From an uncultured Gemmiger sp. (GTDB lineage: Bacteria > Bacillota > Clostridia > Oscillospirales > Ruminococcaceae), in NCBI GenBank assembly GCA_944388105.1, contig CALXHN010000015.1:1-38491 (forward strand): a stretch of 38,491 nucleotides of DNA, read 5' to 3'. The notes under the pieces are model-generated. The model made no database searches. It was not told where the DNA came from and worked only from the letters and a program-made list of their open reading frames with translations. How positions within the stretch are numbered: position 1 is the first letter of the stretch; each line of letters opens with the position of its first letter. The position numbers were made by a program, and so were the translations under genes. This document shows positions 32 through 23,100 of this stretch, piece by piece.

Positions 32-253
32 TTATACCAGTTCCACCATCTCCGCGTCCGCCTTGCGAATGCTGAGCTCATATCCACGGATATTCAGTTC
101 CATGGGGTCCCCCAGCGGCGCCACCTTGCGCACCAGGATCTGAACGCCTTTGGTCAGACCCATGTCCATGATGCGCCGGCGCACCGGACCTTCCCCGTGT
201 ACCTTGGCTACGGTGACGGTCTGCCCCACCTTGGCTTCTTTCAGCGTTTTCAT
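32..253 (-). CDS. FeoA family protein (second of a tandem pair)
   Basis: This 73-residue protein has the FeoA SH3-like fold pattern: an early V-G-Q-T stretch, a central R-R-R-I-M-D-M-G-L motif, then G-V-Q-I-L-V-R-K-V-A-P-L-G-D-P and a closing R-G-Y-E-L-S-I-R-K. FeoA proteins are small cytoplasmic partners of the ferrous iron transporter FeoB; no FeoB is inside the window. I chose ATG at 253 because a GGAGG lies 7 to 8 nt upstream; the longer frame to 286 has no ribosome site. It follows the other FeoA gene by 45 nt and shares its promoter, so the two are probably co-transcribed and controlled by the DtxR-type operators near 568-617. Confidence 0.9.
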   Translation of the reverse strand: MKTLKEAKVGQTVTVAKVHGEGPVRRRIMDMGLTKGVQILVRKVAPLGDPMELNIRGYELSIRKADAEMVELV

Positions 254-298
254 TGTATTGCCTCCTCCATACAAATCTATGGCCAACGGCTTGCCCGT

Positions 299-514
299 TC
301 AGCTGACCAGAATGCGGTTTGCCATGGTCTTGTCCAGTGCCACCCGACTGTCCCTGACCTGCAGAATCAGGTTGCCGGACAACTGGCTGACAATCACGAC
401 CCGCGTGTCCAGCACAAAGCCCAGTTCGGCCAGGTGCTGACGCACATCATCCCGTCCGGTGATCTTCCGGATGGTGTAGCTTTCTCCGATTTTGCCCATG
501 GTGATCGGCAGCAA
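299..514 (-). CDS. FeoA family protein (first of a tandem pair)
   Basis: This 71-residue protein is a second FeoA-like domain: G-E-S-Y-T-I-R-K-I-T-G-R-D-D, then H-L-A-E-L-G-F, V-I-V-S-Q-L-S-G-N-L-I-L-Q-V and a final D-S-R-V-A-L-D-K-T-M-A. Split FeoA pairs upstream of FeoB are common in Clostridia, and their role is support of Fe(II) uptake at the membrane. The start is TTG at 514: AAGGGG sits six bases upstream, whereas the in-frame ATG at 499 has no well-placed ribosome site. The gene is the first of its operon. Its promoter region carries the 18-bp palindromes also seen before the DtxR-family gene, which argues for metal-dependent repression. Confidence 0.85.
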   Translation of the reverse strand: MLPITMGKIGESYTIRKITGRDDVRQHLAELGFVLDTRVVIVSQLSGNLILQVRDSRVALDKTMANRILVS

Positions 515-567: not shown

Positions 568-585
568 AGTTAGTTTTTACTAACT
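568..585. promoter_or_regulatory. DtxR-type operator, copy 1 (FeoA promoter)
   Basis: AGTTAGT-TTTT-ACTAACT is a perfect inverted repeat with 7-bp arms and a 4-bp spacer. It lies about 15 bp downstream of the proposed FeoA -10 element, where a bound protein would block elongation or open-complex formation. The same 18-bp frame recurs at 648-665, 1830-1847 and 1912-1929. The binding protein is inferred to be the DtxR-family product at 701-1078. Confidence 0.8.
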
Positions 586-599
586 TTCGGATCATTTGC

Positions 600-617
600 A
601 GTTTATAACCACTAACC
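600..617. promoter_or_regulatory. Degenerate DtxR-type operator (FeoA promoter core)
   Basis: AGTTTAT-AACC-ACTAACC fits the palindrome frame with one intact half-site (ACTAACC, 611-617) and a second half with two mismatches. It covers the proposed -10 and part of the spacer of the FeoA promoter. It is weaker evidence than the other copies and could be chance similarity in an AT-rich promoter. Confidence 0.4.
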
Positions 618-628
618 GGGAATGTCAA
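600..628 (-). promoter_or_regulatory. Promoter for the FeoA pair
   Basis: On the minus strand, a perfect TTGACA (623-628) is followed after 17 bp by TAAACT (600-605), a 4/6 match to the sigma-A -10. Operator-like palindromes lie over and just downstream of it. Confidence 0.6.
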
Positions 629-637
629 TCCTTTTTC

Positions 638-666
638 TTGCATTTCAGGTTAGTTTGTGCTAATGT
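638..666 (+). promoter_or_regulatory. Promoter of the DtxR-family gene
   Basis: TTGCAT (638-643), a 17-bp spacer, then TAATGT (661-666). The palindrome at 648-665 fills the spacer and overlaps the -10, an arrangement expected for autorepression. Confidence 0.6.
648..665. promoter_or_regulatory. DtxR-type operator, copy 2 (regulator promoter)
   Basis: GGTTAGT-TTGT-GCTAATG matches the 18-bp frame of copy 1 with a slightly degenerate right arm. It lies between the -35 and -10 of the regulator gene and overlaps the -10. Confidence 0.7.
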
Positions 667-700
667 TTTAAGTAAAGACCAATAAAGCGAGGCTTTTTTT

Positions 701-1078
701 ATGAAGATTCACCAATCTGCAGAAGATTATCTGGAAAAAATTCTTATGATCCAGGAGCGGAAGGGCGAAGTCCACTCCATTGACATTGCCAATGAGCTGG
801 GCTTTTCCAAGCCAAGTGTCAGCGTAGCCATGAAGAATCTGCGGCTGGCAGGTTATATTTCCATGGACGGTGCCGGCTGCATCACCCTGGAAGCACCGGG
901 ATACGAGATCGCCACCCGGATCTACCAGCGCCACAAGCTGCTGACCCGCATCCTCATGGCTTTGGGTGTGGATGAGGAGACCGCTGCAGAAGACGCCTGC
1001 AAGATCGAGCACGACCTGAGCCCCGAAACCTTCGACCGGCTGGCCGAATACGCCGAAAAGCATTTCCCCGAAGAATAA
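701..1078 (+). CDS. DtxR/MntR-family metal-dependent transcriptional regulator
   Basis: This 125-residue cytoplasmic repressor has an N-terminal winged helix-turn-helix (about residues 6-65, with D-I-A-N-E-L-G-F-S-K-P-S-V-S as recognition region) and a dimerisation/metal domain (70-125); there is no C-terminal SH3 domain, as in MntR. From remembered family alignments the metal ligands fall at D9, E12, H78, C100, E103 and H104. D9/E12 resemble Mn-sensing MntR, but C100 replaces the MntR glutamate and matches the DtxR cysteine, so metal preference is open. It is divergent from the FeoA pair and convergent with the DUF3793 gene, and all three promoters carry the same palindrome. Iron sensing is therefore the likely role. 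The ATG at 701 has a GAGG upstream at about nine bases. Confidence 0.92.
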   Translation: MKIHQSAEDYLEKILMIQERKGEVHSIDIANELGFSKPSVSVAMKNLRLAGYISMDGAGCITLEAPGYEIATRIYQRHKLLTRILMALGVDEETAAEDACKIEHDLSPETFDRLAEYAEKHFPEE

Positions 1079-1097
1079 TCTTTTTCCCAACGAAAAC

Positions 1098-1138
1098 AAA
1101 ACCGGCGCCCGCACGGAGAGTACACGGGCGCCGGTTTT
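1098..1138. terminator. Bidirectional terminator between the DtxR and DUF3793 genes
   Basis: AAAACCGGCGCCCG (1098-1111) pairs perfectly with CGGGCGCCGGTTTT (1125-1138). T-runs on both strands let it end the rightward regulator transcript and the leftward DUF3793 transcript. Confidence 0.9.
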
Positions 1139-1231
1139 GCTGATTCGGAAAGCCTTTTTCAAAAGATCGCAAATGGCTGTGTACGTTCTTTTTCAGGCTG
1201 GAAATAATCGAATTGGAAACAGTTGTCTGCA

Positions 1232-1798
1232 CTACACCGCCACGGTAAGGCGGGTGGGGGTGAATCCGCTGCGGTAACAGCGCAGATACACCTCCGTGCA
1301 TTTGCGGTATTGCGCAAAACGGGCACGCGCGGCATCCGGATCGCCGTATGCTTTCCAGTATCCCTTGCATGTATAATTTTTTCCCTTGTTCTGCACAAAC
1401 CCGACCACGTCCTCCAGGGGATATCCCAGGAAAACACCGATCTCATGCGGGAATTCCGCTTCCGTGCACAGACGCGACGAAAGATGCGCCAGCTGGGATT
1501 CCAAAGGACCTGTGCCATACCCGGCCTCTGCCAGATAGGCCTGTACCTCTGTCCGCTGCAGGATCTCCCGCAGGCGATTGGCACGGTACACATAGATGAG
1601 AAAGGCGGAGGTCAGCGAACAGGCCTTGAGCACCTGAATCTTTACGCCCCTGGATGCCAGCTGGGAACGCCAGACCGCAAGGGTTTTATGCATGGAGGCC
1701 GCATCCGGCTCCACCCAGCGGAACAGATTGGCCGGTTTGATGCCGGCCATGACCGGCGCACACTGGGTAATGAAGGCCACGCCAAAATCTCTGCGCAT
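1232..1798 (-). CDS. DUF3793 family protein
   Basis: This 188-residue protein matches my memory of the DUF3793 family: an N-terminal C-A-P-V-M-A-G-I-K-P-A-N-L-F block, a central E-F-P-H-E-I-G-V-F-L-G-Y-P-L-E-D-V stretch, and a C-terminal W-K-A-Y-G-D with Y-R-K-C. No signal peptide or membrane segment is visible, so it is probably cytoplasmic; no biochemical activity is known to me. I chose ATG at 1798 because GGGAGGTG lies just upstream; a GTG at 1807 falls inside that ribosome site. A strong promoter precedes it, with two copies of the palindrome that also sits on the regulator and FeoA promoters. It is therefore likely part of the same metal regulon. Confidence 0.8.
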   Translation of the reverse strand: MRRDFGVAFITQCAPVMAGIKPANLFRWVEPDAASMHKTLAVWRSQLASRGVKIQVLKACSLTSAFLIYVYRANRLREILQRTEVQAYLAEAGYGTGPLESQLAHLSSRLCTEAEFPHEIGVFLGYPLEDVVGFVQNKGKNYTCKGYWKAYGDPDAARARFAQYRKCTEVYLRCYRSGFTPTRLTVAV

Positions 1799-1829
1799 AA
1801 AAATCACCTCCCGGTTTTGTTGGTCCGTC

Positions 1830-1847
1830 GGTTAGCTAAAGCTAACC
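1830..1847. promoter_or_regulatory. DtxR-type operator, copy 3 (DUF3793 leader)
   Basis: GGTTAGC-TAAA-GCTAACC has perfect 7-bp arms with a 4-bp spacer. It lies in the leader of the DUF3793 transcript, 82 bp from copy 4 (centre to centre), so the two could act together or through a loop. Confidence 0.78.
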
Positions 1848-1911
1848 AATAAGTCAAAAACAGCCCATCTCGCCTTTTTCGCCAGAAAGCGAAGGGCAGG
1901 ATGGCGTCATC

Positions 1912-1929
1912 AGTTAGTCTTTTCTAACC
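1912..1929. promoter_or_regulatory. DtxR-type operator, copy 4 (DUF3793 promoter)
   Basis: AGTTAGT-CTTT-TCTAACC follows the same 18-bp frame. It begins about 10 bp downstream of the DUF3793 -10, covering the likely transcription start and early transcribed bases. Confidence 0.78.
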
Positions 1930-1938
1930 GATGCAATG

Positions 1939-1967
1939 ACTATATCACACTGCGGCTTTTCTGTCAA
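1939..1967 (-). promoter_or_regulatory. Promoter of the DUF3793 gene
   Basis: On the minus strand, perfect TTGACA (1962-1967), a 17-bp spacer, then TATAGT (1939-1944), a 5/6 match. This is one of the strongest sigma-A-like promoters in the window and is immediately followed by an operator palindrome. Confidence 0.8.
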
Positions 1968-2121: not shown

Positions 2122-3234
2122 ATGGATCATATTCTGTACGTCGAAATCAACCTGATCTGCATTTTGATTGTGGTGCTGGAAATCGTGCAGCTGGCGCGGG
2201 ACATTGATAAGTCCCCCCGGGTACGACTTTTCACCGGTCTGATGTGCTGTGCCCTGCTGAGTTTTGGTTTTGACCTTGCCTGGGCCCTGCTGCATGCGGC
2301 CGGCGCGCCGGAACCCCTGAGCTGGACCGTCAACCAACTGTATTTCCTGGCTCTGAACCTGACCTCGGTTTTTTGGATGCTGTACGCCGAGACCTGTATG
2401 GAATCCTGCTGGCTGCAAAAGCGCAGCCTGTTCTGTCTTTCCCTGACGCCGGCCGCGGTCCTGCAGATCATCACCCTGGCAGGGCTGGTGTTTTACATCG
2501 GTCCGGAAGGATACCAGCGCGGCCCTTTGCACTGGTTCCAGGTGGCGGTCGCCTATCTCTACATCTTCTGGCCCGCCGGAAAGGCCTACATCAAATCCAC
2601 CCAGCGGCGCTATTACGCCCATCGATCCGAATACCGGATGCTGGCGTCCTTTGTGCTGTTCCCATTGTTGTTCTCCGCCCTGCAGCTATTTTTGGGCGGC
2701 GATGCTCCTATGCTGTGCGTGGGCATCACCTTGTCCATCATCCTGCTGTACCAGAACCGGCAGGCGCGGCTGATCTCCCGGGACCCGCTGACCGGCCTGA
2801 ACAACCGTACCCAGCTGATACAGTATCTTTCCGAGCACATCAAAAGCCACGACAAGACTTTGTATCTGCTGATGATGGACGCCAACCGGTTCAAGAACAT
2901 CAACGACACCTACGGGCACACCGCCGGAGACCGGGCACTGGTGCAGATTGCCACAGCCCTGAAGAAATCGGTGCCGCCCCGGTTCCTGATTGCACGGTAC
3001 GGCGGCGATGAATTCATTGTGGCCGGAGAGGCAGACAGCGAACCGGAGATCTGTCAGCTGCGGGACCGCATCATCCAGACCCTGGCACAAGAAAACGCGG
3101 CCAGCGGGGAGCCCTGGCACCTGTCCCTGTGTATCGGCTATGCGGCATACAGCGACAAGATGAACACCATCCCGGACCTGATCGAAGCCGCCGACCGGGA
3201 ACTGTACAAAGCCAAAAGAAACCTGACCCACTAG
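2122..3234 (+). CDS. Membrane-anchored GGDEF diguanylate cyclase
   Basis: The 370-residue protein has an N-terminal half with about six or seven hydrophobic segments (residues roughly 5-210) and a C-terminal GGDEF domain (about 220-370). The domain starts with D-P-L-T-G-L-N-N-R and carries an intact R-Y-G-G-D-E-F active-site motif, so it should make cyclic di-GMP from two GTP at the inner membrane face. The usual RxxD inhibitory site five residues before GGDEF reads R-F-L-I, so product feedback inhibition is probably absent. No PAS, GAF or EAL domain is visible. The ATG at 2122 follows AGGAGGTG. It is a single-gene transcript with its own promoter and terminator. What the membrane domain senses cannot be told. 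Confidence 0.9.
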   Translation: MDHILYVEINLICILIVVLEIVQLARDIDKSPRVRLFTGLMCCALLSFGFDLAWALLHAAGAPEPLSWTVNQLYFLALNLTSVFWMLYAETCMESCWLQKRSLFCLSLTPAAVLQIITLAGLVFYIGPEGYQRGPLHWFQVAVAYLYIFWPAGKAYIKSTQRRYYAHRSEYRMLASFVLFPLLFSALQLFLGGDAPMLCVGITLSIILLYQNRQARLISRDPLTGLNNRTQLIQYLSEHIKSHDKTLYLLMMDANRFKNINDTYGHTAGDRALVQIATALKKSVPPRFLIARYGGDEFIVAGEADSEPEICQLRDRIIQTLAQENAASGEPWHLSLCIGYAAYSDKMNTIPDLIEAADRELYKAKRNLTH

Positions 3235-22720: not shown

Positions 22721-23099
22721 CAACGAGTGGAACATACGACGGCGGGGCGGCGTTGGCGACAGCGACCGTCCTGAGGAAAGTCCGGGCTTCTCAGAGGCAT
22801 GACAACTGCTAACGGCAGCCGGGGGTGACCCCAGGGAAAGTGCAACAGAAATAGACCGCCGCCTTTTGGGCGGTAAGGATGGAAAGGCGAGGTAAGAGCT
22901 CACCAGCGCACTGGCGACTTTGCGGCTATGTAAACCCTGTCAGAAGCAACATCCGTATGGGACATATGTGGAAGCCTCGCACGTCCCGGAGATGGCATGA
23001 CGCCTGCGACCACGTGCCACAGGCGCGGAGCCTTGCGGTGACGCAAGGTCAAGATAGATCGTCGTTTGATACAGAACCCGGCTTACGGTCCAGTCGTTG
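22721..23099 (+). ncRNA. rnpB: RNase P RNA (bacterial class A)
   Basis: This catalytic RNA of about 379 nt trims the 5' leader from tRNA precursors. Conserved cores are visible: GAGGAAAGTCCGGGC near 22773, ACAGAAATAGACCGCC near 22846, AGGTAAGAGCTCACCAG near 22890, and GATAGATCG with TACAGAACCCGGCTTACGG near 23054-23088. CAACGAGTGGA (22721-22731) pairs with TCCAGTCGTTG (23089-23099) with one mismatch, forming helix P1 and setting both ends. The conserved stems indicate the ancestral class A shape rather than the Bacillus class B shape. It has its own promoter and terminator. Confidence 0.96.
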
Positions 23100-23100
23100 C

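Follow-up and report, generated by a model that had tools for sequence, protein, structure and literature searches.

Palindromic candidate operators of a DtxR/MntR-type, probably iron-sensing repressor in Gemmiger and other gut Clostridia

Gene Layout and Five Palindromes Around dtxR

We analyzed a stretch of 38,491 nucleotides from an uncultured Gemmiger sp. (hereafter the window), which is the whole of contig C15 of a draft genome (G000; G, C, and L numbers are our handles for genomes, contigs, and loci). We focused on five 18-bp palindromes around the gene of a DtxR/MntR-type regulator, which is 98% identical to its counterpart in Gemmiger formicilis An812 and is encoded by the single DtxR-family gene of this genome. 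Two FeoA-domain genes (feoAA) and the gene of a DUF3793 protein flank the regulator gene, and Pfam domain matches bear out the names that an initial annotation had given to all of them. In relatives, feoB follows the second FeoA-domain gene (gene order in L134, L141, L152, and L114); the feoB gene expected here is not seen because the contig ends there. The features of the locus are as follows.

32..286, minus strand: FeoA-domain protein 2 (PF04023, E 1.1e-19)
299..514, minus strand: FeoA-domain protein 1 (PF04023, E 6e-15)
568..585: candidate operator 1, exact, AGTTAGTTTTTACTAACT, shortly downstream of where feoAA transcription is predicted to start
600..617: candidate operator 2, two mismatches; its degenerate arm AGTTTA is the predicted feoAA -10 hexamer, TAAACT, read on the other strand
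600..628, minus strand: predicted feoAA promoter from the scan, TTGACA (628-623), 17 bases, TAAACT (605-600); 10 of 12 consensus positions
638..666, plus strand: possible dtxR promoter assigned by eye, TTGCAT (638-643), 17 bases, TAATGT (661-666)
648..665: candidate operator 3, two mismatches, over the likely dtxR -35/-10 spacer, its degenerate right arm overlapping the likely -10 hexamer
701..1078, plus strand: DtxR/MntR-type two-domain repressor, 125 residues (PF01325 and PF02742, both over the cut-off)
1232..1807, minus strand: DUF3793 protein, 191 residues (PF12672, E 2.1e-54)
1830..1847: candidate operator 4, exact, GGTTAGCTAAAGCTAACC, within the DUF3793 leader
1912..1929: candidate operator 5, one mismatch, 10-27 bases past the predicted DUF3793 -10 hexamer
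1939..1967, minus strand: predicted DUF3793 promoter from the scan, TTGACA, 17 bases, TATAGT; 11 of 12 consensus positions

We scanned the window with the pattern RGTTAGYNNNNRCTAACY and estimated chance from 100 dinucleotide shuffles of the 38.5-kb sequence. All five palindromes lie where the initial annotation had placed them, two exact, one with one mismatch, and two with two mismatches; its wording that the motif occurs at four of these positions is strictly right for 568 and 1830 and generous for 648 (two mismatches) and 1912 (one mismatch). At up to one mismatch, the window contains three sites against a shuffle mean of 0.01. At up to two mismatches it contains five, against a mean of 0.42 and a maximum of 3, and none of the 100 shuffles reached five. 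We dropped sites with three mismatches as noise because 7 of the 100 shuffles equaled the nine sites observed (shuffle mean 4.94). An alignment of the window with six relatives covers the three sites of the feoA-dtxR gap. Both arms of the site at 568, GTTAG and CTAAC, are kept in all seven sequences, as are GTTAG and CTAA of the site at 648; at 600, AGTTTA is kept in 7/7 and the CTAAC arm in 5/7, which makes this copy the least certain operator of the three. Taken together, the five palindromes look like real operators of a metal-sensing repressor.

The promoter scan found three promoters on 1.67 kb against 1.3 expected, so the case for them rests mainly on position and conservation. The possible dtxR promoter at 638..666 was missed by the scan, and its TTGC and CTAA are kept in all seven aligned sequences. 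The sites do overlap or follow predicted promoters, as the initial annotation had it. The three promoters that it counted fit the locus and are too few for the genome, in which boxes with at most one mismatch also precede genes for enolase, an ABC exporter unit, and a ZIP transporter elsewhere. The copies at 600-617 and 648-665, which appear weak, may be so because they double as promoter elements. Protein bound at 568, 600, 648, or 1912 would stand in the way of RNA polymerase at the promoter or immediately past it, and the site at 1830 in the DUF3793 leader could act as a roadblock.

Operator Geometry and Half-Site

For the spacing, we used the dtxR loci of 80 relatives (465 kb; the best 80 of 116 confirmed matches, close relatives included). 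When GTTAG-Nk-CTAAC was counted for k = 0-20, k = 6 gave 47 matches spread over 20 of the 80 loci, k = 2 and k = 8 gave one each, and the other 18 values gave none. Three control arrangements never exceeded three matches at any k in the same loci. The spacing was not picked post hoc, since k = 6 takes 47 of the 49 matches over the whole range. At base 5 of the half-site, the left arms of the 47 sites carry T (23), C (19), A (4), and G (1), and the right arms, read on the other strand, carry C (20), A (14), T (10), and G (3). The G of an IdeR-type TTAGG half-site is found in 4 of these 94 half-sites.

The 19-bp DtxR/IdeR box TTAGGTTAGSCTAACCTAA can be read directly from its letters as two interleaved TTAG-N6-CTAA units. 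In Saccharopolyspora, one such unit is bound by one IdeR dimer, and the target has been redefined as the 14-bp TTAGGNNNNCCTAA (PMC8464063, excerpt), a sequence absent from the window at up to one mismatch. The site of Bacillus subtilis MntR is likewise 18 bp long and consists of two 9-bp inverted repeats (PMC11275975, preprint, excerpt). The initial annotation had proposed, on account of the spacing, a new operator class. Half-site and spacing are both of DtxR type, the former as the annotation had recognized, and the proposal of a new class is not supported: six bases between TTAG and CTAA are the published single-dimer spacing of this family, and the geometry was already known because IdeR binds one TTAG-N6-CTAA unit as one dimer. 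An operator class with a spacing of its own could appeal to the missing second interleaved unit of the 19-bp box and to the rarity of G at base 5, but we consider it very improbable in view of the one-dimer geometry published for IdeR and the 18-bp inverted-repeat site published for MntR.

The palindromes share with the one-dimer operator of IdeR the TTAG and CTAA arms six bases apart and, presumably, a single dimer on each palindrome, and both belong to a family that controls iron homeostasis genes. Unlike the IdeR site, base 5 here is mostly C, T, or A, and the regulator lacks the SH3-like third domain. With the B. subtilis MntR site, they share the 18-bp length and dyad, a two-domain regulator, promoter overlap, and one site over a -35 element, whereas Glu99 of MntR is replaced by Cys here and the targets look iron-related. 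The half-site sequence of B. subtilis MntR also differs from the one found here. What is new, as far as the literature searched goes, is the TTAGY-type half-site and the regulon in Clostridia; among the matches listed from open-licence PMC papers, we recognized no earlier description of this regulon.

A Two-Domain Regulator With a Hybrid Metal Site

The regulator matches PF01325 with 41.5 bits and PF02742 with 58.3 bits. Neither Pfam nor the AlphaFold2 model (pLDDT 93.5) gives a third, SH3-like domain, and the protein ends at residue 125. The nearest solved folds are the MntR proteins of Bacillus halodurans and B. subtilis (best E 6.5e-9), with DtxR and IdeR lower in the list. By domain content and predicted fold, the regulator is a two-domain, MntR-like member of the DtxR/MntR superfamily. 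The NCBIfam equivalog cut-offs for MntR are not reached (88.1 against 153 bits and 69 against 138 bits).

The presumed metal ligands are D9, E12, H78, C100, E103, and H104. The last five are identical in 80/80 relatives, and residue 9 is D in 37, N in 25, and M in 18 of them; relatives with Met at this position (L101, L102, and L103) carry a box of the same form. The protein alignment comprises 56 of the 81 available sequences (window and 80 loci) and omits L074, which has a stop in its translation. The published iron site of DtxR comprises Met10, Cys102, Glu105, and His106, and the manganese site of MntR comprises Asp8, Glu99, Glu102, and His103 (PMC4805248, excerpt). The regulator has Asp9 as in MntR, with Cys100 in place of Glu99 in all 80 relatives; it has Cys100, E103, and H104 as in DtxR/IdeR, with Asp at residue 9. 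It therefore carries a hybrid metal site, mixing an MntR-type Asp with a DtxR-type Cys.

Second DtxR-type proteins occur in the genus. In G009, a paralogue (L149:3576-4785) adjoins DUF3793; two exact boxes separate the two genes, and a methyltransferase gene close by is boxed as well. Further second matches were found in G026 and G034.

The Box in the Genome, the Genus, and the Class

Throughout the genome scans, the reversed pattern served as a control. At up to one mismatch, the genome of the window has seven sites against one control, one of the seven being rejected as a likely terminator; random scatter over the genome, which the initial annotation had named as the outcome that would speak against a regulon, is not what we found. 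The boxed units at this threshold are feoAA/dtxR, DUF3793 (two boxes), enolase (C60), an ABC exporter (C96), and ZIP (C100). The ABC exporter unit has a second box with two mismatches, and this target is uncertain because a choloylglycine hydrolase-like gene lies on the other side of the box. For ZIP, only the start of the gene is on its contig, and we identified it by eye because it resembles L142 of G008.

The rejected site precedes an Xaa-Pro aminopeptidase-like gene (C98 and also G008; gene named by eye), where GGGGCAGGGTT...AACCCTGCCCC forms a hairpin followed by T-rich DNA, a terminator as judged by eye. This palindrome (L018:5458-5475 and L143:2005-2022) is a likely false positive of box scans.

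Across 35 genomes of the genus, we found 229 sites against 30 controls. The number of sites rises with the identity of the regulator (Spearman 0.66, 33 genomes), with a mean of 9.0 in the 21 genomes at 60% identity or more and 2.6 in the 12 below. This comparison omits G018 and G024, which gave no regulator match (71% and 68% complete; six and four sites). Boxes precede feoA, feoB, dtxR, DUF3793, flavodoxin, ZIP, FecCD permease, ABC exporter, pyruvate formate-lyase (PFL), and NifU-like genes in at least two genomes each. FecCD permease genes are boxed together with a Peripla_BP_2 protein, and methyltransferase genes also carry boxes. The boxed PFL genes represent five distinct sites (L111/L140, L125, L127, L194, and L197), and the NifU-like protein is boxed in L136 and L195; "NifU-like" and "DUF4405-like" are descriptive labels for proteins with no family match in the domain searches. 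Some boxes adjoin genes that could not be named. In one genome, a box precedes an MptD-family ECF S component (TIGR02185, L147:6038-6678), a transporter part that may handle an iron compound or a cofactor.

In the class, sampled by 293 Clostridia genomes for which at least 90% completeness was requested, 335 exact sites lie in 121 genomes, against 21 control sites. Of the 169 genomes with a strong homologue of the regulator (about E <= 1e-20), 111 have the exact motif, as do 5 of the 60 with a weaker match and 5 of the 64 with none. Some class-level boxes near genes without an evident metal link, e.g., a flagellar-type gene in L231, may be chance. The sites of the window form one locus of a wider, apparently iron-linked set of genes that gut Clostridia share. 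The metal regulon proposed in the initial annotation thus stands, in that the boxes track the regulator and precede iron-acquisition genes in the genus, and the adjacent regulator probably runs it.

The only strong FeoB match in the genome of the window (C83; L315:6072-8426) is a FeoA-FeoB fusion that shares 41% identity with the FeoB of the G008 operon. The fusion adjoins hydrogenase-like genes and a HypB-like gene (names by eye), its locus has no box at up to three mismatches, and it is a separate Feo system.

Mechanism, Metal, and Repressor

We interpret each palindrome as an operator for one dimer of the neighboring two-domain DtxR/MntR-type repressor, which likely senses Fe(II) and represses its own gene, and we give this reading a probability of roughly three in four. 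When the metal is plentiful, most likely Fe(II), the loaded dimer would sit over or just past the feoAA, dtxR, and DUF3793 promoters and block transcription. When iron falls, the repressor would leave, turning on ferrous uptake (Feo, ZIP, and, in relatives, FecCD importers) together with iron-sparing functions (flavodoxin with DUF3793, pyruvate formate-lyase, and enolase). The sequences themselves show the sites with their nearly exclusive spacing, their overlap with predicted promoters, the conservation of three of them, the list of targets, and the co-occurrence with the regulator. Binding of the regulator, repression on binding, and iron as the signal are what we infer. Flavodoxin, Feo, FecCD importers, PFL, and NifU-like genes are the iron side of the target list, and we rate iron about four or five times as likely as manganese, a judgment and not a computed value.

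Manganese is the alternative signal, and the ligand residues alone do not decide between the two metals: PgMntR of Porphyromonas gingivalis, with the same Asp/Cys/Glu/His set, responds to manganese (PMC4805248, excerpt). The regulator might be an MntR acting at mntP and repressing Feo and ZIP importers that carry Mn(II); the iron-like appearance of the targets would then reflect Fe/Mn cross-talk. Its fold and sequence are nearest to MntR, and Asp9 is as in MntR. PgMntR, whose gene is also linked to Feo-type transport, binds the promoter of a Feo-type manganese transporter operon and, in the excerpt of PMC4805248, not that of the iron transporter; it differs in having two C-terminal FeoA domains, which are separate genes here. 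The manganese exporter gene mntP, named by eye, adds to this side. In the 30 loci examined out of 36 mntP matches in 35 genomes, a box with up to two mismatches lies upstream in 8 (reversed control 0/30; boxes at L020:5665-5682 and in L267-L272, L277, and L288). In seven loci, which are the whole near clade (G000, G008, G011, G017, G023, G031, and G033; regulator identity at least 82%), it lies over TTGACT, a possible -35 element. B. subtilis MntR activates in a manganese-dependent manner from sites including one over the -35 element (PMC11275975, preprint, excerpt), and manganese-dependent control of mntP would fit as well. An iron repressor that keeps mntP off at plentiful iron and permits manganese export while Feo/ZIP uptake is on would also fit. 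A manganese riboswitch suspected in the mntP leader gave no Rfam match at the gathering score. Against a manganese sensor stand the replacement of MntR's Glu99 by Cys in 80/80 relatives, the variation of residue 9 to Asn or Met with the form of the box unchanged, scores far below the MntR equivalog cut-offs, and targets that fit iron, namely flavodoxin, FecCD permease with Peripla_BP_2, PFL, and NifU-like genes; we regard it as unlikely.

Far less probable still is that a Fur-family protein, and not the DtxR-type protein, uses the boxes. The genome encodes four Fur-family proteins, and Fur controls feo and a flavodoxin in Clostridioides difficile and Clostridium acetobutylicum (PMC6311696, excerpt). 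The C. difficile Fur regulon resembles ours in placing feo and flavodoxin under iron control, but repressor family and box are unrelated, the Fur box in the excerpt of PMC6311696 being AT-rich and different. Half-site and spacing are of DtxR type here, the boxes precede the DtxR-type regulator's own gene, and their number and presence track this protein.

Several observations weigh against an iron-sensing DtxR-type repressor acting at the boxes. Beyond the four Fur-family proteins and the mntP boxes, including those over the possible -35 element, Fe2+ destabilizes the DNA complex of the hybrid-site PgMntR (PMC4805248, excerpt), and low iron lowers a pfl branch in C. difficile (PMC6311696, excerpt), at odds with PFL as a simple low-iron route. 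The strict GTTAG-N6-CTAAC is missing from the dtxR loci of 60 of the 80 relatives. At up to two mismatches, the genome of the window has 19 sites against 10 controls, about half thus being expected by chance. In the class, an exact site is missing from 58 of the 169 genomes that have a strong homologue and present in 10 of the 124 others, and four sites each occur in G119 and G315, where no regulator was found. The Fisher P of 3e-25 for 111/169 against 10/124 ignores shared ancestry.

DUF3793 and Flavodoxin

DUF3793 is encoded in 97 of the 293 Clostridia genomes. In the best-scoring 30 loci, which are not independent as several come from one genus, flavodoxin stands beside DUF3793 in 25, and a box with up to two mismatches is found in 22, always on the upstream side (reversed control 1/30). 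In L246 and L250, this upstream box stands ahead of a dtxR gene that precedes DUF3793. In the window, no flavodoxin gene follows DUF3793. The structural model of DUF3793 is of low quality (pLDDT 65; residues 142-191 are unreliable) and found no PDB match at E <= 0.001; the sole paper retrieved with the term DUF3793 in the literature searched concerns, by its listing, fungal splicing. By guilt by association, DUF3793 may work alongside flavodoxin when iron is limiting.

The gene of a GGDEF protein (2122-3234) follows immediately past the DUF3793 promoter and has its own predicted promoter at 2039-2067; the window scan found no box with up to two mismatches from 1930 to the start of this gene. 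Farther along, the plus strand carries a bacterial class A RNase P RNA (22724-23100, 217.9 bits).

A Boxed Enolase

To our surprise, the box precedes enolase in a genus in which 17 of 35 genomes gave no enolase match. Enolase was found in the other 18 and, among the 19 genomes with at least 90% completeness and at most 5% contamination, in 12; the genus search gave none in G026 and G034, each a single contig and 99% complete. The enolase gene of our genome is at C60:3659-4948, and the 17 others are L297-L314. In L313 and L314, the start lies off the matched part, and the box counts cover the other 16 loci. Within 450 bases upstream of the start, a box with up to one mismatch is present in 9/16 and with up to two mismatches in 10/16 (reversed control 0). 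In eight of the nine boxed enolases, the boxes lie between -112 and -75, in genomes with regulator identity of at least 60%. G033, also at 60% identity or more, has none of these boxes.

Enolase might be an iron-starvation gene, the metal-sparing partner of a hypothetical iron-dependent route from 2-phosphoglycerate to phosphoenolpyruvate. Flavodoxin, helped by DUF3793, would be set against ferredoxin by the same switch. We hold this idea to be unlikely, and an iron-dependent substitute for enolase is speculation. Other readings of the absence are loss under other selection and failure of the search, the latter opposed by the enolases found down to 65% identity. In the excerpt of PMC6118326, missing enolase is unexplained in rumen Butyrivibrio, Prevotella, and Lachnospiraceae.

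Implications

Clostridial iron control has been described via Fur, e.g., in C. difficile (PMC6311696, excerpt). Our results point to a regulon in Clostridia that is marked by a DtxR-type repressor and by its box; the clostridial iron-control papers we found deal with Fur. The regulon gives a functional lead for DUF3793, an uncharacterized family, as a candidate iron-limitation protein that travels with flavodoxin. Because enolase is boxed in eight genomes of the genus with a close form of the regulator, the regulon may also offer a handle on the enolase-less rumen bacteria (PMC6118326, excerpt). If the idea held, a hidden iron-dependent route would explain why about half of the genomes of the genus, and some rumen Butyrivibrio and Prevotella, show no enolase.

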